A stretch of 24,203 bases of DNA. It comes from a virus. The notes below the pieces were generated by a model. That model was given only the letters and a program-made list of their open reading frames with translations. It did not search any database and was not told where the DNA came from. Where the stretch lies: IMG/VR virus record IMGVR_UViG_3300036835_000102, positions 1-24,203 of that record; one strand, written 5' to 3'. Position numbers and translations under genes: made by a program. This document shows, piece after piece, positions 1,286-15,897 of the stretch; the first letter of the stretch is position 1, and each line of letters starts with the position of its first letter.

Positions 1286-1687
1286 TTATACTGCGATACC
1301 TCTACGAGTAAACGATATATCTCCGTTAAAAGGATCACCATAATTTAAATGTCTTGAAAGTCTTGGCTCACTAATACCAGTTTCTCGAGCAGCATCACTT
1401 TGACTAAGCCAGTATTTGTCACTTCCATCAAGAGATACGATATAACTCAAACGTTTAGAATCATAATTGTTTGTTATTGGACCAATATGGCTATTAAAAA
1501 GAGAAGAATTGTTCACCGTTTGTGATTTGTCCACGAAGGTGGTCGCATCACGCCATTGTCCACTCAGGTGGTCGCCGAACGGTGTTCTTCTCATTATAAG
1601 GATTGTAATTCCTGCGAAGGTGATTCCTCCGGAGATAAACAGATATTTAGATTTATGTTTTTTAATATGGGTTTTAATTTTATTCAT
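1286..1687 (-). CDS. Membrane-anchored NUMOD1/HTH-like protein, paralog 1
   Basis: This 133-residue protein has a basic N-terminus (MNKIKTHIKKHK), one hydrophobic transmembrane segment (about 15-32, ending ILIMRR), a polar linker and a C-terminal helix-turn-helix-like block. The block (about 90-116, SQSDAARETGISEPRLSRHL) matches the NUMOD1 pattern of an S-x-x-xAA-x-x-x-GIS-x-x-x-ISxHL type. NUMOD1 modules usually accompany homing endonucleases, but no GIY-YIG or HNH nuclease is seen. A same-length paralog with the same architecture lies at 12423-12824. The codons for FAGITILIMR form a copy of the 29-bp promoter-like element (1589-1617). The Shine-Dalgarno (AAAGAAAA) is weak. A strong terminator follows. 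Function is unknown; a membrane-tethered DNA-binding regulator is an inference. Confidence 0.75.
   Translation of the reverse strand: MNKIKTHIKKHKSKYLFISGGITFAGITILIMRRTPFGDHLSGQWRDATTFVDKSQTVNNSSLFNSHIGPITNNYDSKRLSYIVSLDGSDKYWLSQSDAARETGISEPRLSRHLNYGDPFNGDISFTRRGIAV
1589..1617 (-). promoter_or_regulatory. 29-bp promoter-like element, copy A (inside a coding region)
   Basis: On the minus strand it begins TCGCAG, continues through TTACAAT and ends CTTATAATGAGA. It matches the eight copies at 11181-14569 at most positions. It lies in frame within the gene at 1286-1687 and encodes part of its transmembrane segment. No well-formed gene starts just downstream, so it is either an internal promoter, an operator or a remnant. 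Confidence 0.55.
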
Positions 1688-2439: not shown

Positions 2440-2695
2440 TAAACATTGGTGATCAACCAAATGCGCTCTGTGTGGCCTTCACAGTCAACTAGGGCGGTCT
2501 GACTCATACGGACACGGGGCGGTGTGTCCAGAGGTGTATGCCCAGACAGTAAGAGTATTGGGCGGCGGGTGCCCGTATCTTAGCGCCCTACGCACTGAGC
2601 TTAAAGCCTATTTAAAGTCGCTCAGCCGACTTGTGTTGTGGGCTGATGCTGTGACTTCCAGCCATTTAACTCCTCCTTTTGCAAGTCACAATAGT
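2440..2695 (-). ncRNA. Candidate structured non-coding RNA in a GC-rich island
   Basis: This gene-poor stretch is clearly richer in G+C than its surroundings and holds many perfect inverted repeats. They are TAGGGCG 2490-2496 with CGCCCTA 2584-2590; ATACGG 2506-2511 with CCGTAT 2573-2578; GGACAC 2510-2515 with GTGTCC 2524-2529; CTGTG 2468-2472 with CACAG 2480-2484; and TGTGACTT 2650-2657 with AAGTCACA 2683-2690. The first two are properly nested, giving a long-range helix around a 3-way or larger junction. High GC with nested stems in an AT-rich genome is typical of structured RNAs. No known family (tRNA, tmRNA, group I intron) was recognised. The minus strand is assumed from the neighbours. 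An origin of replication or a transferred fragment is possible. Confidence 0.4.
2612..2665 (-). CDS. Possible 17-residue leader peptide
   Basis: An ATG at 2665 sits four to five bases after AAAAGGAGGAG, one of the best ribosome-binding sites in the window, and opens a 17-residue reading frame (MAGSHSISPQHKSAERL). The site is in the loop of a perfect 8-bp stem (2650-2657 with 2683-2690), which could limit access to it. The peptide resembles nothing I know. It may be a leader peptide, or the SD-like purine run may belong to a structured RNA instead. Confidence 0.3.
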   Translation of the reverse strand: MAGSHSISPQHKSAERL

Positions 2696-8968: not shown

Positions 8969-9868
8969 CTAAATTTTATCGTAAATGATTCCATCAACGT
9001 TAAAATCAAGCAATATACTTTGCTCAGACCCGTTTACAAATCTAGAATTAAAGGCCTCAAATATACCAAAATCGATATAACCATCTCCATCGCCATCAAG
9101 CAGCCATCCGACAACTGATCCGGCTCTGGATCGTTCAATTCCCAACCCATCGTATACTTCATTCAAAAATACATGTCCATAAGCTCTAAGCCTATGATTG
9201 AAATAATTTTGCTGACATTGAACAAATATACGATTATATTCTGGATCTCGCTCCCAATGCCGAGAATATTCGTCAAAGAATTTTGCATATGGGGAATATT
9301 TATTTGGATCAGCAACTTTCACCAAAAATTCATTTCCCTCAGCATCTTTAGCTATCTCAGTTTTAGTGGCATGATAAATTTCGAGCTCTTTATCAGCGCC
9401 AATTTCAGCACGAACTCGATCCCGATAATCAGAATATGCCTTTTCAACAGCAGCATAAGCTGCCATCAATGCACTATTACGACGAACTAACGTTATGTGT
9501 GAATTAGTTAGCAATCCAATTGAAGCGGCTCCAATAAGAACCGACGGACCATAAAGCTTAACGATTCGAAGACTTGCCCGTCCGTAAACATAAAGTGTCT
9601 TAACATGTTCTGCAACTACTTCATCCGTAACAACTTCAGTAGTTAATTCTGGATGATTAGATTTATTAACTTGAGGCTTTAATACCTGAATATCTTTTTG
9701 AATTTCGTCAAGGGTGGCAGAAAGTTTCAATGTTGCACGGCAAGCTAAAACGGTACTTGCCACGGTTCCTGCTATTCCTGCTGCAAAGAAGATATGTGGT
9801 GAATTCTTTTTTGCGATTAACAATTGCCTACTAAGTTTACCAACTACTGATGCTGGTACTAGTTTCAT
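8969..9868 (-). CDS. DUF6353-like membrane protein, paralog 1
   Basis: This 299-residue protein has two likely membrane segments: about 25-45 (SPHIFFAAGIAGTVASTVLA) and about 105-130 (YGPSVLIGAASIGLLTNSHI). A helical region with KAYSDYRDRVRAEIG follows, then a C-terminal soluble domain. The arrangement and blocks match the phage DUF6353 group; a second, diverged copy is at 11319-12074. A loop in the C-terminal domain, DGDGDGYIDFG, resembles a calcium-binding EF-hand loop but lacks the usual Glu at position 12. The start has GGAGG nine bases upstream, overlapping the end of the preceding gene. Function is unknown. Membrane location during infection or in virion assembly is an inference. Confidence 0.75.
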   Translation of the reverse strand: MKLVPASVVGKLSRQLLIAKKNSPHIFFAAGIAGTVASTVLACRATLKLSATLDEIQKDIQVLKPQVNKSNHPELTTEVVTDEVVAEHVKTLYVYGRASLRIVKLYGPSVLIGAASIGLLTNSHITLVRRNSALMAAYAAVEKAYSDYRDRVRAEIGADKELEIYHATKTEIAKDAEGNEFLVKVADPNKYSPYAKFFDEYSRHWERDPEYNRIFVQCQQNYFNHRLRAYGHVFLNEVYDGLGIERSRAGSVVGWLLDGDGDGYIDFGIFEAFNSRFVNGSEQSILLDFNVDGIIYDKI

Positions 9869-10960: not shown

Positions 10961-10993
10961 AAAAGGAAAGAGCCCGTTTGGGCTCCGTCCTTT
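10961..10993 (-). terminator. Intrinsic terminator ahead of the replication operon
   Basis: The minus strand carries a GAGCCC-(4-nt loop)-GGGCTC stem extended by AAAGGA/TCCTTT and followed by TTTCCTTTTTC. It overlaps the stop codon of the 55-residue microprotein gene and sits 20 bp before the chaperone-like gene. No new promoter is visible between it and that gene, so some read-through seems required. Confidence 0.75.
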
Positions 10994-11160
10994 CATTGAG
11001 TTACTGTTACAAGTTTCTTATTTTTGATACAATCAAGAACTGACACGTATGCCTTATTCGTCAGTTGTTGTGCTGCAAAGCCGACAATTGTGCCGACAAC
11101 GAGCATTCCAACTTGATGCTTCATAGGCAACGCGTTTATATCGTTCTTTTTAACCATCAT
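10993..11160 (-). CDS. 55-residue membrane microprotein
   Basis: This ORF starts at ATG 11160, five bases after AAGGAG, and ends TGA. The product begins MMVKKNDINALPMKHQVG, then has one hydrophobic segment (about 17-30, VGMLVVGTIVGFAA) and a polar tail with NKAYVSVLDCIKNKK. It lies 20 bp downstream of copy B of the 29-bp promoter-like element and directly before an intrinsic terminator. It therefore looks like a complete one-gene transcription unit. Its layout (short basic start, glycine-containing TM, short tail) resembles the products at 13378-13605 and 13698-13907. Function is unknown. Confidence 0.7.
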   Translation of the reverse strand: MMVKKNDINALPMKHQVGMLVVGTIVGFAAQQLTNKAYVSVLDCIKNKKLVTVTQ

Positions 11161-11180
11161 AATTACTCCTTAAATAGGTC

Positions 11181-11209
11181 TCTCATTATAATGGTTGTAA
11201 TTCTTGCGA
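11181..11209 (-). promoter_or_regulatory. 29-bp promoter-like element, copy B
   Basis: Read on the minus strand it starts TCGCAAGAATTACAAC and ends ATTATAATGAGA. The TATAAT core, a purine start region and AAGGAG follow at natural spacing, with the ATG of the 55-residue gene 20 bp beyond the element. This layout fits a -10 box with an unusual upstream recognition block. Confidence 0.7.
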
Positions 11210-11216
11210 CCTACTC

Positions 11217-11306
11217 CTAATCCCTCAAATTCTCCCAAATGGCGAGACCCAAAGCAGCCAAGATGAGAGTAATGATGACAATAATAGCCTTCGTCTTATT
11301 ATTCAT
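11217..11306 (-). CDS. 29-residue membrane microprotein
   Basis: This short ORF starts at ATG 11306 with AAAGGA eight bases upstream and ends TAG at 11217, eight bases before copy B of the 29-bp element. The product begins MNNKTK and is then one continuous hydrophobic segment (about 7-24, AIIVIITLILAALGLAIW) with a short charged end (ENLRD). This is a typical single-pass membrane microprotein. It starts 12 bp after the end of the DUF6353-like gene at 11319 and is probably co-transcribed with it. Function is unknown; phage microproteins of this shape include holin-like and inner-membrane regulators. Confidence 0.6.
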   Translation of the reverse strand: MNNKTKAIIVIITLILAALGLAIWENLRD

Positions 11307-11318
11307 GACAAATATCCT

Positions 11319-12074
11319 TTACAGAGTCTTTGTGTAATTATACTCAAATGTGATACATGGACGCCCATCTTCAGACAACGTCGTTGAGAATATGAGCTCC
11401 ATTAACTTGTCTGATGTCCAACCGATATTATTAGATGCAGTAGTCGGTGCGAGTCCTATCATGTAATAGAAATCGTCTAGTGTAGCGTAATCATGTTTTA
11501 ATAACTTAGAATTTAAATCGTTCTGAGCCCTCCTTAACTTTTCCATATCACAAGCGAAATATCGCATCGTGAATAATTCACAGCATAAAACGTTACCGGG
11601 GCCTGTTACCAAAACGTCCTGAGACGGTGGAGGATTCTTTGTTACCTGTTCGGCGACCACCTTATCTCGAATGGACTGATCCTTACGAACACCGAACTCC
11701 TCAATGACTTTGTCTCGATATTCAGAATATGCTCGTTCTGTGAAAGCGAGTGCAGCATGAGCGGCGATGGTCTTTTGGGCCTCCATTCGCTTAGCACCAA
11801 TGATGCACACAATTGTAGAAACGGTGGAAATTGTCGACGGAATATAGAGTTTCCATACAAGTCTTGTTCGATCCTTTAGACGTTCCTTTGGATTAATAGC
11901 GGGAGCATTATTTTCTTCATACTCCCGTATAGTATTAGCTGCATCGAACGAAGCCTTACCTACCAAAAATGCAGTAGTTAATGTCCCAACGCCAGCAGCA
12001 ACAGAGAAAATAAGAGGGGAATTAGCCTTTATTGTCTTTAACAAGCTTCCACTGAATTGAGACAATTTATTCAT
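11319..12074 (-). CDS. DUF6353-like membrane protein, paralog 2
   Basis: This 251-residue protein has two likely membrane segments: about 20-45 (NSPLIFSVAAGVGTLTTAFLVG) and about 75-98 (LYIPSTISTVSTIVCIIGA). A helical stretch HAALAFTERAYSEYRDKVIEEFG follows; the same FTERAYSEYRDKV/VEKAYSDYRDRV block is in the protein at 8969-9868. The C-terminal soluble domain has DDFYYMIGLAP. The frame extends to an ATG at 12134, but the ATG at 12074 overlaps the stop of the 46-residue microprotein as ATGA. I choose it because the protein then begins just before the first membrane segment, as in the paralog. The gene is the second cistron behind copy C of the element. Function is unknown. Confidence 0.75.
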   Translation of the reverse strand: MNKLSQFSGSLLKTIKANSPLIFSVAAGVGTLTTAFLVGKASFDAANTIREYEENNAPAINPKERLKDRTRLVWKLYIPSTISTVSTIVCIIGAKRMEAQKTIAAHAALAFTERAYSEYRDKVIEEFGVRKDQSIRDKVVAEQVTKNPPPSQDVLVTGPGNVLCCELFTMRYFACDMEKLRRAQNDLNSKLLKHDYATLDDFYYMIGLAPTTASNNIGWTSDKLMELIFSTTLSEDGRPCITFEYNYTKTL

Positions 12075-12211
12075 CGTGCTTTTCGCATCTCCCTTACAAA
12101 CACCCAAATCAACCAGAACCCTGACGTTATGCAAGTCATGAACACGTCAAGCATGAACTTCCAGAATCCGTAACTCTTACGCTTTGGATAAACATAATAA
12201 TTAGTTGTCAT
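12071..12211 (-). CDS. 46-residue membrane microprotein
   Basis: This ORF starts at ATG 12211 after AAAAGGAG (five-base spacing) and ends TGA, overlapping the start of the DUF6353-like gene. The product begins MTTNYYVYPKRKSYGFWKF, continues as one aromatic hydrophobic segment (about 20-38, MLDVFMTCITSGFWLIWVF) and ends in a basic tail (VREMRKAR). It is the first gene after a leader of about 140 nt that contains three identical hairpin repeats (12257-12339) and copy C of the promoter-like element. Tight coupling to a larger membrane protein suggests that the two act together. Function is unknown. Confidence 0.65.
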   Translation of the reverse strand: MTTNYYVYPKRKSYGFWKFMLDVFMTCITSGFWLIWVFVREMRKAR

Positions 12212-12256
12212 TATTCTCCTTTTAAAAAATTAGATGAGAAGATACATTGTTCTAAT

Positions 12257-12339
12257 GTCCTCGTAGTCGAGATTTTCACTAGAATTAGGTGTCCTCGTAG
12301 TCGAGATTTTTCACCGCAATGTCCTCGTAGTCGAGATTT
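12257..12339 (-). repeat. Three identical hairpin-forming direct repeats in a leader
   Basis: A 19-bp unit (plus strand GTCCTCGTAGTCGAGATTT) occurs three times, at 12257-12275, 12291-12309 and 12321-12339, with unrelated spacers of 15 and 11 bp. Each unit contains CTCG-TAGT-CGAG, a 4-bp stem with a 4-nt loop, so the transcript would hold three small hairpins in a row. They lie between the promoter-like element (12353-12381) and the microprotein start (12211). The spacers are too short for a CRISPR array. Protein-binding operators or an RNA-level switch are likelier. Confidence 0.8.
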
Positions 12340-12352
12340 ACATTGACTATCC

Positions 12353-12381
12353 TCTCATTATAAGCGTTGTAATTTTTGCGA
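12353..12381 (-). promoter_or_regulatory. 29-bp promoter-like element, copy C
   Basis: The minus-strand copy starts TCGCAAAAATTACAACG and ends CTTATAATGAGA. It follows directly on a terminator (12385-12416) and would transcribe the three-hairpin leader, the 46-residue microprotein and the DUF6353-like gene. Confidence 0.7.
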
Positions 12382-12384
12382 ACT

Positions 12385-12416
12385 GAAAAAAGGAGAACCA
12401 TTGCTGACTCTCCTTT
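12385..12416 (-). terminator. Intrinsic terminator with GGAGA/TCTCC stem
   Basis: On the minus strand an 8-bp perfect stem (AAAGGAGA with TCTCCTTT) is followed by a run of T residues. It begins seven bases after the stop of the NUMOD1-like gene at 12423 and lies next to promoter copy C. Its stem and loop (GCTGACTCTC) resemble the terminator at 13660-13687. Confidence 0.8.
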
Positions 12417-12422
12417 AATGTT

Positions 12423-12824
12423 TCATTGTGAAATAGCAACACGCTCGAAATGCATACCGTCAACATTCGGTATTTTTCCTGTTAAATGTTTTGACAGAAA
12501 CGTTTCTGAAATGTTGAAAACTCGAGCAGCTTCTCGTTGTGAAGAGAAATATTCGTTGGTATCTAAATTTCTAATCAAGTACCCGGGTCGTCCTTTTCCA
12601 AATTTATTAGAAACATTAACTAGATTCGTTTGCTTAGACAAAAAACATAGAGGCCGCATGGTGACCGAAGTATCTGCAGTTTTCAGTCCATAGGGCTCTG
12701 TTTGAAATCCCTCATAACGTCCTCTCATTATAAGCGTTGTAAAAGTTGCGACCCCTATTCCTGTGGCAACACAAGAATAAATGGTTTTATGTCTTTTAAT
12801 ATGTTCTCTTATTTTATTATCCAT
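12423..12824 (-). CDS. Membrane-anchored NUMOD1/HTH-like protein, paralog 2
   Basis: This 133-residue protein has the same length and order as the product at 1286-1687. It has a basic start (MDNKIREHIKRHKTIY), one transmembrane segment (about 15-32, ending TTLIMRG), a linker, and a NUMOD1-like helix-turn-helix (about 92-116, SQREAARVFNISETFLSKHL). Two promoter-like elements (copies E and F) lie upstream, and a third (copy D, 12723-12751) is inside the gene, encoding VATFTTLIMR. The Shine-Dalgarno is AAAGGAGG. Its leader holds two consecutive hairpins and a T-rich run just before the ribosome-binding site, so transcription attenuation or RBS masking is possible. A terminator follows. A DNA-binding role, held at the membrane, is an inference from the HTH. 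Confidence 0.75.
   Translation of the reverse strand: MDNKIREHIKRHKTIYSCVATGIGVATFTTLIMRGRYEGFQTEPYGLKTADTSVTMRPLCFLSKQTNLVNVSNKFGKGRPGYLIRNLDTNEYFSSQREAARVFNISETFLSKHLTGKIPNVDGMHFERVAISQ
12723..12751 (-). promoter_or_regulatory. 29-bp promoter-like element, copy D (inside a coding region)
   Basis: The minus-strand copy reads TCGCAACTTTTACAACG then CTTATAATGAGA. It is in frame within the NUMOD1-like gene and encodes VATFTTLIMR. Six bases after a GAGAGGA, an ATG just downstream opens only a ten-codon frame, so an internal promoter would have no obvious product. Confidence 0.55.
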
Positions 12825-12842
12825 TATCCTCCTTTAAAAATT

Positions 12843-12890
12843 AAAGAAAGGCTCGGTTTTACCCGAGGTAGCTGACTGCTACATGCTGGT
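12843..12890 (-). promoter_or_regulatory. Leader with tandem hairpins before the NUMOD1-like gene
   Basis: In the minus-strand RNA, GTAGC-AGTCA-GCTAC is followed at once by CTCGG-GTAAAA-CCGAG and then by CCTTTCTTTAATTTTT. The run ends next to AAAGGAGG and the ATG at 12824. The second hairpin plus the U-rich run looks like an attenuator. The CCTTT just after the hairpin could also pair with AAAGG of the ribosome-binding site. Both are inference from the sequence. Confidence 0.45.
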
Positions 12891-12899
12891 TTCGCATCC

Positions 12900-12928
12900 T
12901 CTCATTATAAGCGTTGTAATTCTTGCGA
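12900..12928 (-). promoter_or_regulatory. 29-bp promoter-like element, copy E
   Basis: The minus-strand copy reads TCGCAAGAATTACAACG then CTTATAATGAGA, matching the consensus exactly. It lies 75 bp upstream of the NUMOD1-like start and 44 bp downstream of copy F. Confidence 0.7.
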
Positions 12929-12937
12929 ACCACAACA

Positions 12938-12976
12938 GAGAGAGGCTACGGCATTAAGCACAGATGCACCTCTCTC
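12938..12976 (-). other. 8-bp inverted repeat between tandem elements E and F
   Basis: GAGAGAGG (12938-12945) and CCTCTCTC (12969-12976) form a perfect 8-bp stem, with GCAT/ATGC inside it as a possible second stem. The stem begins at the last bases of copy F, where its transcript would start. RNA from copy F would therefore carry a 5' hairpin. Confidence 0.6.
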
Positions 12977-13001
12977 ACTATAGCGGTTGTAAAAGTTGCG
13001 A
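12973..13001 (-). promoter_or_regulatory. 29-bp promoter-like element, copy F
   Basis: This is the most diverged intergenic copy: minus-strand TCGCAACTTTTACAACC then GCTATAGTGAGA, with TATAGT in place of TATAAT. It shares the CTTTTACAAC middle with copy D. It lies 14 bp after the stop of the gene at 13015 and upstream of copy E, so the NUMOD1-like gene has tandem elements. Confidence 0.6.
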
Positions 13002-13014
13002 AGTAAAATGTCCA

Positions 13015-13332
13015 TTATGGGCGGTTTGGTTTCGGATGTCTTCTTGCTGCCCTATTCGGCTTGGTCAACTCAGCGAAGGCAGCTTGCCCTTCAGGACTAC
13101 GTGCCCACTCATCAGACTCTTCTTTGGTAGCATCAAACGCTCCTGCCTCTACAGCAGCCTTGATAATCTCGAGTCCAGCAACGTGAGCATCATGATGTAG
13201 TTGCATCTCTGGAAACGCCAAAGGTGACTTGTAGTCATCGTAATAACCTTCTCGAGCCTTCTGGATCATCCAAGTAGGTGCATTGGCTACTTCCAAAGCT
13301 TGAGCAAGTCGTTCTGTGGTTGGTATAGTCAT
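13015..13332 (-). CDS. Conserved phage protein of unknown function
   Basis: This 105-residue soluble protein begins MTIPTTERLAQALEVANAPTWMIQKAREGYYDDYKSPLAFP, has a helical middle and then DATKEESDEWARSPEGQAAFAEL. It ends in a basic tail rich in Arg, Pro and Asn (NRAARRHPKPNRP). I recognise TTERLAxALE..PxWMI..AR.GYYDDYKSPLA as a widespread hypothetical family in Gram-positive, especially actinobacterial, phages. The function is unknown to me. The ribosome-binding site AAGGAG is four bases before the ATG. An intrinsic terminator (13343-13376) lies just upstream, so expression needs read-through or a promoter that I cannot see. Confidence 0.8.
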   Translation of the reverse strand: MTIPTTERLAQALEVANAPTWMIQKAREGYYDDYKSPLAFPEMQLHHDAHVAGLEIIKAAVEAGAFDATKEESDEWARSPEGQAAFAELTKPNRAARRHPKPNRP

Positions 13333-13342
13333 AGAACTCCTT

Positions 13343-13376
13343 AAAAAAGCTAGAGCCCTTGTTAGGGCTCTTGAGC
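13343..13376 (-). terminator. Intrinsic terminator, 8-bp perfect stem
   Basis: On the minus strand AGAGCCCT-AACA-AGGGCTCT is extended by GCTC/GAGC-like flanks and followed by TTTTTT. It begins directly after the stop of the gene at 13378 and ends 11 bases before the start codon of the gene at 13332. Confidence 0.8.
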
Positions 13377-13377
13377 T

Positions 13378-13605
13378 TTATTGACCAAACGCTTTCAATT
13401 CAGCGTAAGCTTCTGGGCAGTAATATTCCATCGGATCGATTCCCTTCGACTTCAAGAACGCGTAAAACTCCTTAGTAGCACTCACATGAAAGGCGCCCAT
13501 TGCAATTGCAATAGTACCTCCAATATATTTGCCTCTGTGACGAATCACATGTTCTTTAATCTTGGTAACTTTCGACTTCTTCATGGGAATAATATTTGCT
13601 TCCAC
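13378..13605 (-). CDS. Small membrane protein with KIKEHxxRHRGKY start
   Basis: This 75-residue protein begins MEANIIPMKKSKVTKIKEHVIRHRGKY, followed by a short hydrophobic segment (about 28-42, IGGTIAIAMGAFHVSA) and an acidic tail. The KIKEHVIRHRGKY block matches the N-termini of the two NUMOD1-like proteins (HIKKHKSKY, HIKRHKTIY). It therefore looks like the same membrane anchor without the HTH domain. The start is GTG at 13605, five bases after AAGGAG; a later ATG (13584) lacks a ribosome-binding site. Copy G of the element is 23 bp upstream and a terminator is directly downstream, making a one-gene unit. Confidence 0.75.
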   Translation of the reverse strand: MEANIIPMKKSKVTKIKEHVIRHRGKYIGGTIAIAMGAFHVSATKEFYAFLKSKGIDPMEYYCPEAYAELKAFGQ

Positions 13606-13628
13606 ATTAACTCCTTAATTGGGCTTAG

Positions 13629-13657
13629 TCTCATTATAATCGTTGTAAATTATACGA
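13629..13657 (-). promoter_or_regulatory. 29-bp promoter-like element, copy G
   Basis: The minus-strand copy reads TCGTATAATTTACAACG then ATTATAATGAGA. TCGTAT replaces TCGCAA while the ACAAC and TATAATGAGA blocks are kept. It lies 23 bp upstream of the GTG at 13605 and directly after a terminator. Confidence 0.65.
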
Positions 13658-13659
13658 AC

Positions 13660-13687
13660 AAAAAAGAGAATCATCGCTGACTCTCTT
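13660..13687 (-). terminator. Intrinsic terminator paired with promoter copy G
   Basis: On the minus strand GAGAGTCA-GCGA-TGATTCTC forms an 8-bp stem (one G-U in RNA), followed by TTTTTT. It starts about 10 bases after the stop of the gene at 13698 and ends only a few bases before copy G, the same arrangement as at 12353-12416. Confidence 0.75.
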
Positions 13688-13697
13688 TCGGGCTACA

Positions 13698-13907
13698 TCA
13701 GGGGGCTACTGAAGCAACCGCAACTTTGCGGACTGTGTCCAAAAGTACGTACGCACATACGGCAATCCCGATCTTTTTCACACTGTTATCGAGTAATCCA
13801 CCAATTATCTTAGCTTTATCCTCAAATCCAATATAGTTCGGGTTTGTCTCATCTTTGTTCGACTTACCTTTTTTCACTAGGTCCACCTTAACTTCGCGAT
13901 TAAACAT
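13698..13907 (-). CDS. Small conserved membrane protein
   Basis: This 69-residue protein begins with a charged N-terminal half (MFNREVKVDLVKKGKSNKDE, then NPNYIGFEDKAKIIGGLLDN), followed by a hydrophobic C-terminal segment (about 45-58, IGIAVCAYVLLDTVRK). The block PNYxxFEDKAxIIGxxLxxxVKKIG is a pattern I have seen in several phage genomes, with no function assigned. The ribosome-binding site is TTAGGAG six bases before the ATG. Copy H of the element ends 24 bp upstream, and a terminator follows, so this too looks like a single-gene unit. Confidence 0.75.
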   Translation of the reverse strand: MFNREVKVDLVKKGKSNKDETNPNYIGFEDKAKIIGGLLDNSVKKIGIAVCAYVLLDTVRKVAVASVAP

Positions 13908-13931
13908 TTCAATCTCCTAATCAAATATAGT

Positions 13932-13960
13932 TCCCATTATATGCGTTGTTTATTGTGCGA
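13932..13960 (-). promoter_or_regulatory. 29-bp promoter-like element, copy H
   Basis: The minus-strand copy reads TCGCACAATAAACAACG then CATATAATGGGA. The TATAAT core and ACAACG block are kept, while the middle has AAAC in place of TTAC. It is 24 bp upstream of the gene at 13907. Confidence 0.65.
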
Positions 13961-14160
13961 ACACTTTTCAGAAACCTTCCCCCGGGATTTTTTTGGGTAA
14001 AATAAGCTAGAATAGCTTATAGGCGTCTACAATCGATTCTAAGACGTTCAATCATATTTCTGGGAGTATTCCCCATTTATTTGCTTTAAACGGCTTACAG
14101 AGCCAAATATAGCACACTTTTTATAAAAAACAGGTTGAAAAATTATAACATTTGCGAAAA
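13961..14160 (-). other. Non-coding AT-rich region with small inverted repeats
   Basis: No gene was found in these 200 bp. They contain a perfect 8-bp inverted repeat, ATAAGCTA-GAA-TAGCTTAT (14002-14020), and CGTCT...AGACG just beyond it. There is also a run CCCGGG next to T7 (about 13981-13994). Near the upstream edge, a minus-strand TTCGCA and a TATAAT lie five bases apart, like a shortened version of the 29-bp element. No tRNA-like arms were recognised. Confidence 0.5.
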
Positions 14161-14204
14161 CACAGGAACCATGTAAGCTTTTTATGTCTTACAAGGCTCC
14201 TGTG
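14157..14204 (-). terminator. Long intrinsic terminator
   Basis: A 17-bp stem, CACAGGAGCCTTGTAAG with CTTACATGGTTCCTGTG, has one mismatch and one G-U pair and is followed on the minus strand by TTTT. It lies just after the stop of the gene at 14212 and is the longest hairpin in the window. The U-run is short, so termination strength is uncertain. Confidence 0.7.
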
Positions 14205-14211
14205 CCGTTCA

Positions 14212-14523
14212 CTATGTGTGGGACTGGATGTGTGGTTCTCTCGCTCTGATTACAAACCCCAATCCTTTCGAAACCATCACATGCTTCTGCTCATATGCCA
14301 CGATTATCAAGATTCCGAGAAGATTTCCAACTACGACCGCCATTGCGTCCGGGCTAACTCTACTAGGGCGTGACTCCGCCTTAATATGACTCAACCTTTC
14401 CAAATGTTTGATCATTGTCGAATACTCTTCGGATTCTGGATTAGTCCTGTTCATTTCAGTCAGAATTCTTGCAATTGGCTCATCAAGAACTGATGATTCT
14501 TCTCTGAACAATCTTTTTAACAT
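14212..14523 (-). CDS. Small conserved membrane-associated protein
   Basis: This 103-residue protein has an acidic, helical N-terminal half (SVLDEPIARILTEMNRTNPESEEYSTMIKHLERLSHIK). It then has a hydrophobic segment (about 64-82, AMAVVVGNLLGILIIVAYEQ) and a basic tail. The block SPDAMAVVVGNLLGILIIVAYEQKHVMVSKG is one I recognise from many siphophage genomes, without a function. The ribosome-binding site is GAAGGAG, five bases before ATG 14523. Copy I of the element lies 17 bp upstream and partly overlaps the end of the preceding gene. A strong hairpin terminator follows, giving a one-gene unit. Confidence 0.8.
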   Translation of the reverse strand: MLKRLFREESSVLDEPIARILTEMNRTNPESEEYSTMIKHLERLSHIKAESRPSRVSPDAMAVVVGNLLGILIIVAYEQKHVMVSKGLGFVIRAREPHIQSHT

Positions 14524-14540
14524 TAATCTCCTTCCATAGT

Positions 14541-14569
14541 CTCCATTATAATCATTGTTTATCTTGCGA
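14541..14569 (-). promoter_or_regulatory. 29-bp promoter-like element, copy I
   Basis: The minus-strand copy reads TCGCAAGATAAACAATG then ATTATAATGGAG. It overlaps the last codons of the gene at 14552-14788 (encoding LSQDKQ-stop) and ends 17 bp before the ATG at 14523. It is the copy nearest to the tail operon. Confidence 0.65.
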
Positions 14570-14788
14570 AAGATCCTCCTCTTCGCTTTTTACAACTTTA
14601 AAGACTATGAATTTCATTTTTTCCATTTCTTCGGGAGATTTATCTAATTCCAATGAAAAAAGCTTTTTCCCTTCATTAGTTGTTAATATTAAAATATCTC
14701 CATCTACTTTTTGATTTCGTTTTAAGAAATATATCTGGAAAATTACACTGATTACAATTACAAAACCAATTACAATAAAATAAATCAC
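14552..14788 (-). CDS. Small single-pass membrane protein ending the tail operon
   Basis: This 78-residue protein has an N-terminal membrane segment (about 3-20, YFIVIGFVIVISVIFQIYFL) followed by a short basic stretch and a soluble tail with KVDGDILILTTNEGKKLFSLELDKSPEEMEKMKFIVFKV. The DGDILI...LFSLELDKSPEE pattern is shared with small phage proteins that often follow the minor tail genes. The start codon is GTG, overlapping the stop of the Gp37-like gene (GTGA) and eight bases after AGGAG. It is therefore the last gene of the tail operon. Function is unknown. Confidence 0.75.
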   Translation of the reverse strand: MIYFIVIGFVIVISVIFQIYFLKRNQKVDGDILILTTNEGKKLFSLELDKSPEEMEKMKFIVFKVVKSEEEDLSQDKQ

Positions 14789-15897
14789 GAAGTCACTCCT
14801 GGAACAGCAAGAGTTGGATGCCCACTTTCTCCAGTTTCATCTTGAATCTCTGCATACTCTGTTACTCGCATTACACCAATTTGACCAAAGTTGGCATTTA
14901 AAGAAACTAAATCACCTACTGAAAAATCTTTTCTATACTGATATTTTGACAAATCTGAAACATCAGCTCTAGTAATAGTTATACGATTTTGATTTTTTAT
15001 AGCTTGACTGCCTCTTGTTTTCATTTTATTGACAATATCAGTTAACTGAGACCCAGAAGGAACGGCAGTTAAATTTCCATCAATATCGTCTGCAGCCACA
15101 ATCATAGTTTTACGATTATATTTTACTGGACCAGTATCCACAAACGTATTAACAAATCGCCCAATTACCATAGCTGAAGTTTTTAAAGGTTTATCACTCC
15201 ATAAATAATCAGCTGTATCAAGATCTCCCGCCTTCCAAGAGAATATAACAGTACTAGATCTATCTACACCTTTATAAACGTGAAATATAGTTTGTGTAGA
15301 ACTTCCGTTAGGCGTATTAAATGTATTTCTACGAATAACCTTAATTCCCAAATCATCAATTGCTAATAGGCTATTAACAGTTTTGTAAAGATCATCGGCC
15401 TTAATTTTACGTAATATAGATTCAACACCTGTTCCTGTAACTGACGTAGTTGCAGTTATATTCACAAGATTATCATCAGTATAAGTTGCGTTGTTAATAT
15501 GATCATTGATTAACGTTACAATTTGATTCCAAGTAGTTGCGGCGTTCAAAGTATAGTCTTGAATAATTGAATTAGCACGAATAAGATTAGTTCCGACAAT
15601 ACGATTCTCAAGATATGCTTCTAATGACCTACCAGTAATTTTTACTGTAGGATCTTCGCTTTTGTCATCATCAATCTCATAATTCTCTACAAACATAACC
15701 TCAAGGGTATTAGTATGAGAAATTAAAGTACCGATAGGTAAAAATGTCATAAGTCCTGAGCTAACTTGATCTATTATTTCAAATTCGCCAGGTTCACTAT
15801 AACGTTCAACCCACATGATGCTCTTTGGCTTAGGAATCATCTGACCTTGAGTAAGAATTGTAGCATCTGTAAAAGATATAAATTTGAAAAGATCCAT
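14785..15897 (-). CDS. Siphovirus Gp37-like tail protein (ReqiPepy6 family)
   Basis: This 370-residue protein begins MDLFKFISFTDATIL. It shows blocks of the ReqiPepy6 Gp37-like tail family: IMWVERYSEPGEFEI near the N-terminus, then a GTLISHTNTLEVMFVENYEIDDD block and ITGRSLEAYLENRIVG. A later segment is RKDFSVGDLVSLNANFGQIGVMRVTEYAE. These proteins belong to the baseplate or tail tip, downstream of Dit, and are related to Tal-type hubs. The gene follows the Dit-like gene with a 1-bp gap. The Shine-Dalgarno is a G run (TGGGGGG), six bases upstream. Family assignment is confident; a host-receptor role is an inference. Confidence 0.85.
   Translation of the reverse strand: MDLFKFISFTDATILTQGQMIPKPKSIMWVERYSEPGEFEIIDQVSSGLMTFLPIGTLISHTNTLEVMFVENYEIDDDKSEDPTVKITGRSLEAYLENRIVGTNLIRANSIIQDYTLNAATTWNQIVTLINDHINNATYTDDNLVNITATTSVTGTGVESILRKIKADDLYKTVNSLLAIDDLGIKVIRRNTFNTPNGSSTQTIFHVYKGVDRSSTVIFSWKAGDLDTADYLWSDKPLKTSAMVIGRFVNTFVDTGPVKYNRKTMIVAADDIDGNLTAVPSGSQLTDIVNKMKTRGSQAIKNQNRITITRADVSDLSKYQYRKDFSVGDLVSLNANFGQIGVMRVTEYAEIQDETGESGHPTLAVPGVTS

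Follow-up and report, generated by a model that had tools for sequence, protein, structure and literature searches.

A rigid repeated promoter in actinobacterial phages and a phage two-barrel RNA polymerase as its probable reader

In phage T7, RNA starts directly after TATA with GGGAGA and the genes concerned are late and middle ones; the virion enzyme of phage N4 uses hairpin promoters. In both cases near-identical repeated promoters are read by a single-chain phage enzyme. The element described here, present in nine copies in a 24-kb (24,203-nt) virus record (IMG/VR record IMGVR_UViG_3300036835_000102; the whole stretch is called the window below), would resemble them in this respect, but the polymerase that we propose as its reader has an unrelated fold. 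The closest experimental precedent is Thermus phage P23-45, in which a virion two-barrel polymerase (gp96) has been associated with an AT-rich motif that is conserved in early promoters (PMC10770324). As in the phages considered here, P23-45 is a siphophage with a single-chain two-barrel polymerase carrying DFDGD, and its motif is found only in relatives that carry the polymerase (PMC10770324). Several conserved AT-rich promoter copies stand before early genes in both. Unlike the P23-45 enzyme, which is fused to the tape measure protein, the polymerase of our phages is a separate gene at the genome end and has helix-turn-helix (HTH) segments. A second relevant system is YonO of the Bacillus prophage SPbeta, again a ~100-kDa single-chain two-barrel polymerase of a Gram-positive phage, serving a gene set of its own phage (PMC5467207). 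YonO transcribes late genes as one operon from a promoter that was left undetermined, and which DNA sequences such polymerases recognise was left open for YonO itself (PMC5467207); here, in contrast, there are many promoters in the early region.

We conclude that the nine repeats are very likely promoters, built to one fixed design that extends across a large group of actinobacterial phages, and that they are probably read by a phage polymerase from an RNA start next to TATAAT. The original prediction of this element had listed nine minus-strand copies and proposed a weight-matrix scan of the genome. A scan of the whole window, with a matrix built from the window and its relatives, recovered all nine at the positions then given, with scores of 34-44 bits, and no others. 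The next-best position in the window scores only 9.7 bits, and the opposite strand holds nothing above 9. Sites above 20 bits were absent from 200 dinucleotide-preserving shuffles, in which the top chance site reached 19.3. The copies, with the open reading frame (ORF) or RNA concerned, are these:

1589..1617, minus strand: promoter copy A, 38.1 bits; nested in ORF 1286-1687
11181..11209, minus strand: promoter copy B, 37.8 bits; before ORF 10993-11160, followed by a Shine-Dalgarno sequence and ATG
12353..12381, minus strand: promoter copy C, 43.9 bits; before a structured RNA
12723..12751, minus strand: promoter copy D, 38.2 bits; nested in ORF 12423-12824
12900..12928, minus strand: promoter copy E, 43.3 bits; before a structured RNA
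12973..13001, minus strand: promoter copy F, 34.3 bits; before a short RNA
13629..13657, minus strand: promoter copy G, 35.8 bits; before ORF 13378-13605, followed by a Shine-Dalgarno sequence and GTG
13932..13960, minus strand: promoter copy H, 38.0 bits; before ORF 13698-13907, followed by a Shine-Dalgarno sequence and ATG
14541..14569, minus strand: promoter copy I, 34.2 bits; before ORF 14212-14523, followed by a Shine-Dalgarno sequence and ATG

Copy I overlaps the end of ORF 14552-14788. Because copies A and D lie inside ORFs, their promoter bases would also encode protein; these two minus-strand ORFs, 1286-1687 and 12423-12824, have similar N-terminal membrane-like segments.

The element has the layout (T)TCGCA-N6-ACA-N5-TATAAT-GAGA. 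Contrary to the shared pattern first proposed, the constant 5' box is TCGCA and not TCGCAA, from which copies A (TCGCAG), G (TCGTAT) and H (TCGCAC) deviate. Copy F has TATAGT, and TATAAT is followed by GGGA in copy H and by GGAG in copy I. Across 215 sites TATAAT is almost invariant at each of its six positions, the second being A in 91% and otherwise G or T. The gaps are rigid: 114 exact matches were found at gaps of 6 and 5 and none at other gaps except for 15 at 8 and 3, which we attribute to overlapping ACACA, since the total length is unchanged. The starts of TCGCA and ACA are one helical turn apart. No conserved -35 bases are present 16-18 bp before the -10, and TTCGCA is separated from TATAAT by 14 bp, as had been noted originally; nor does the TCGCA box occur at any other distance from TATAAT. 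The constancy of this distance, together with the lack of a separate conserved -35, argues that the TCGCA box is part of the promoter.

Conservation in relatives, the absence of which had been named as a possible refutation, was found. The 1253-aa primase/polymerase of the window shares ~55% identity with its counterparts in Gordonia phage Gravy and Rhodococcus phage ReqiPoco6, and a search with a 299-aa window protein (PHROG 2152) returned 21 IMG/VR loci, all of which contain the element. (The window has two PHROG 2152 members, at 8969-9868 and 11319-12134 on the minus strand; two or three copies are present in all 23 related contigs tested, and the Maya homologue is DUF6353.) Counted over the window plus 22 related loci, the gene strand has 181 sites and the other strand 0. 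Relatives bearing the element in their early region include phages of Gordonia, Rhodococcus, Arthrobacter, Streptomyces, Curtobacterium and Bifidobacterium. The numbers of matches, in each case on a single strand, are as follows:

Whole phages: Gravy 13, Poco6 14, Secretariat 9, Tribby 5, Loretta 11
Whole phages, continued: Pippin15 2, Moozy 4, Michelle 9, Maya 11
Whole phages, end of list: contig89 3, BitterVaud1 2

A reversed-motif control gave zero matches in every named phage scanned. Lactococcus phage P162 and Enterococcus phage PMBT2 have no matches to the TCGCA-type element; P162, whose host is a firmicute, carries 11 one-strand copies with the same layout, in which TTTTA, ATTTA or ATTCA replaces TCGCA. 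In whole-genome scans the sites are grouped after the tail and lysis genes, between the structural genes and the DNA polymerase, and the actinophage genomes scanned whole have one or two extra copies near the right end. An exact 18-letter scan found at least 118 stretches in viral contigs and 10 in bacterial and archaeal genomes (257 Gb), where ~7.5 would be expected by chance, calculated with equal base frequencies. Since the element occurs in bacterial genomes at chance level only, we reject an ordinary host promoter type. The original suggestion of a promoter without the usual -35 and with phage-specific recognition is supported by the strand bias and conservation of the element, by its position ahead of genes, a tRNA and structured RNAs, and by this bacterial absence beyond chance. 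We found no nucleotide similarity of window positions 11000-15000 to named phages, and no published description of the motif in the open literature.

Inspection of what the copies precede shows two kinds of unit. Among the 215 sites, 131 stand before an ORF with its own Shine-Dalgarno sequence, with TATAAT a median of 26 nt away from the start codon; in the window these are copies B, G, H and I, in agreement with the original description. Copies A, C, D, E and F open RNAs closed by stems that start at the base after TATAAT or one later. One Poco6 copy directly adjoins a downstream tRNA gene, and a P162 copy stands before a tRNA-like stretch in which ARAGORN makes no tRNA call. The element was at first likened to start-associated sequences of mycobacteriophages, among others; those of Cluster K (SAS/ESAS) are likewise short gene-strand repeats before phage genes. 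Unlike them, it contains no ribosome-binding site, the Shine-Dalgarno sequence lying downstream of it; since copies also precede a tRNA and non-coding RNAs, we reject a start-associated or ribosome-binding repeat. The RNAs of the window are these:

1496..1592, minus strand: possible RNA from copy A; the stem GAGAAGAA/TTCTTCTC starts with the base that follows TATAAT and T5 comes after it; minimum free energy (MFE) on folding -32.3 kcal/mol
12225..12356, minus strand: RNA of copy C; the closing stem starts with the base that follows TATAAT, T-run at the end; MFE -37.9 kcal/mol, z -4.3, 0/200 shuffles as good
12641..12726, minus strand: possible RNA from copy D; its stem, AGAGG/CCTCT, starts at the second base past TATAAT and a T-run follows
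12836..12903, minus strand: RNA of copy E; four-way cloverleaf closed by the stem GAGAGG/CCUUUC, which starts with the base right after TATAAT and is followed by a U-run; MFE -23.7 kcal/mol, z -4.4, 0/200 shuffles as good
12938..12976, minus strand: stem-loop after copy F; 9-bp stem GAGAGAGGT/GCCTCTCTC on folding

The copy D RNA lies inside an ORF and is the weakest case among the five. The Shine-Dalgarno sequence and ATG of ORF 12423-12824 are directly 3' of the U-run of the copy E RNA, and the copy F stem-loop starts at the first base after TATAGT and stops just short of copy E. In the copy C RNA there are three near-identical hairpin arms with the core CTCGACTACGAG, and it could be a protein-binding or decoy RNA. 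Two units in related loci (L011 6318 and L015 19632) have a similar arm layout with different sequences.

These structures bear on the position at which RNA starts. A T-rich tail preceded by a stem of 5 bp or more is found in 127 non-coding units, and in 78 of them the stem begins with precisely the base that follows TATAAT. The 3' arm has T-C-T-C opposite A-G-A-G and thereafter plain T. When the folded segment is extended in the 5' direction, the gain in folding energy per added base is -2.22 kcal/mol at offset 0 (the base immediately 3' of TATAAT) and -0.30 at offset -1; in a swapped-arm control the gain at offset 0 is -1.19 kcal/mol. In 116 of 139 units, bases 0-2 are paired with the final 8 nt that precede the T-run; the figure for swapped arms is 491 of 695. 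The pairing of the constant GAGA with TCTC was rejected as evidence of covariation, permuted arms pairing equally often. Because GAGA itself barely varies, stems were anchored at offset 6 or beyond and only variable positions were used; covariation was then found at offsets 5, 4 and 2 (Watson-Crick P = 0.005, 0.003 and 0.003, respectively, against permuted arms). From these RNA structures we infer that the RNA start adjoins TATAAT and does not lie ~7 bases downstream, as it does for a host sigma factor. The bases after TATAAT would then be within the RNA, which is contrary to host sigma-A, for which they correspond to about -6 to -1 and are outside it.

As a candidate for the enzyme that recognizes this promoter, one evident transcription enzyme was found among the conserved non-structural proteins examined. 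This is PHROG 4291 (Gravy gp92, Maya gp85), a predicted single-chain two-barrel RNA polymerase of ~900 aa with terminal HTH segments. GADFDGD, which includes the DFDGD catalytic motif, is invariant in alignments of 16 and of 77 sequences, and an N-terminal HYG-x2-R-x-SGRYPWGSG motif is common to them. An AlphaFold model built on 16 sequences was of insufficient quality (pLDDT 67.5, pTM 0.36) and gave way to one built on 77 sequences (pLDDT 80, pTM 0.69). The best Foldseek matches of the latter are QDE-1, plant RDR2 and Thermus phage P74 gp62, with probability 1.00 and E down to 1e-8, at global TM-scores of only ~0.3; sequence searches of the PDB found no polymerase. The gene occurs in 26 of 30 records. 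Every complete phage tested that bears the motif has it, as do 22 of the 23 large contigs recovered by the DNA pattern alone. It is plausible, judging from record annotations, that the enzyme is virion-borne: its orthologue is annotated "structural protein" in the records of Lactococcus phage 1706 (orf75) and of Rhodococcus Poco6. A literature search for the phage 1706 proteome found nothing. In the related phages tested the polymerase gene is directly followed by a gene for an 87-aa protein (PHROG 4303; L175 15271-15531 in Streptomyces phage Maya), which is a candidate polymerase partner. In SPbeta (L304), on the minus strand near 14882-14868 and ~0.7 kb upstream of yonK, we noted AGAAGGCTTATAATGGG, one base from ACA-N5-TATAATG; this single weak match falls where the YonO promoter is said to lie, may be due to chance and serves as a lead only.

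Several observations weigh against this assignment. The sequence TATAATGAGA resembles a good host -10 plus discriminator. Terminators that act on read-through transcripts could mimic stems that start at GAGA, and the constant GAGA pairs with any pyrimidine tail, so that only the variable positions count. The window stops before the expected position of the polymerase gene, which in its nearest relative (L005, record G001) is near the record end. Contig G031, a 46-kb fragment with 16 copies, shows no polymerase. Moreover, in the same 23 contigs the lineage DNA polymerase is present in 22 and PHROG 2152 in 23; these are linked to the motif equally well, and we have therefore rejected co-occurrence as proof for the polymerase. 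The association of motif and polymerase tracks the core of the whole lineage and not the polymerase specifically.

The main rival, which we consider unlikely, is that host sigma-A RNA polymerase acts on a -35-less TATAAT followed by GAGA or GGGA, with a phage protein bound at TCGCA-N6-ACA (about -31 to -18) replacing the -35 contact. T4 middle promoters, with a good -10, no -35 and a phage-specific box near -30 for MotA, are organized in this way. TATAAT is a perfect -10, is functional in hosts from both phyla, and GAGA or GGGA fits the discriminator preference of primary sigma factors, while small uncharacterised core proteins could supply the factor. However, a start at about +7 would omit the bases right after TATAAT that the RNAs include, the spacing is without slack, unlike that of ordinary -35/-10 promoters or of the T4 middle class, and TATAAT hardly varies at any of its six positions, whereas in host promoters it is chiefly the second and last bases that are constant. 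No recognisable DNA-binding activator was found among the core proteins scanned. A sigma factor of phage origin, or a strongly diverged sigma-like protein, on host core RNA polymerase had been suggested originally because the 14-bp gap between TTCGCA and TATAAT is atypical of host sigma factors. We regard this as the least probable explanation: sigma-70 region 2 was found in none of 34 motif-bearing or related phage records, although the same search was positive in 10 of 14 control genomes, and the sigma region-4-like HTH that was found sits within the two-barrel polymerase itself, which is the better candidate. Very improbable, too, is that the 5' box is a repressor site laid over host promoters. 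One-directional intergenic repeated sites do resemble the stoperators of Cluster A mycobacteriophages (PMC5559632), but the box keeps a constant distance to TATAAT with no separate -35 conserved, no repressor or integrase is found among the genes of the window or of the listed Gravy and Maya stretches, and a built-in operator is not needed for explanation.

As a whole, we lean towards a model in which, in a lineage of actinobacterial and lactococcal siphophages, a virion two-barrel polymerase transcribes early genes and structured RNAs from a rigid promoter, starting directly after TATAAT. In this model PHROG 4291 would probably be carried in the virion and injected with the DNA. Recognition would involve TCGCA and ACA as well as the TATAAT-GAGA segment, and the enzyme would initiate RNA at the base that follows TATAAT or right beside it. 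The nine copies of the window would be early promoters, their early timing being one that we infer; some would drive small early genes and others short structured RNAs or, in a relative, a tRNA. Typically these RNAs would be closed by a stem between the 5' GAGA and the pyrimidine stretch before the U-run. If true, the model provides a recognised promoter sequence for this YonO/QDE-1-like branch of polymerases, and a case of convergence on a host-like -10 without a sigma factor. The polymerase was found in 250 phage records, many of them isolates on laboratory Gordonia, Arthrobacter and Streptomyces hosts, and with hundreds of candidate promoter copies the recognition question is therefore directly testable. 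Because the polymerase is in most cases annotated as "helix-turn-helix protein" or hypothetical, the transcription strategy of a large phage group has apparently been overlooked.

With the promoter as a guide, small structured RNAs that escape gene callers can be located as well. One conserved RNA family lies directly under it in Gordonia, Rhodococcus and IMG/VR phages; 9 of its 21 predicted pairs are doubly compensated, and it has no Rfam match. Its members are:

L005 7113-7225, L016 7053-7163, L018 7222-7330, L009 6785-6892, L011 7009-7119
L020 7357-7465, L021 7300-7415, L026 44-170, L027 1239-1385

A Pistol self-cleaving ribozyme scores above the Rfam gathering score at window positions 2570-2631 (minus strand), with no promoter copy nearby. 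Pistol ribozymes above that score are also found at L005 17206-17273, L007 17597-17662 and L010 17948-18004; in these three loci a promoter copy stands ~100-560 nt upstream, and the ribozyme may trim the RNA made from it.

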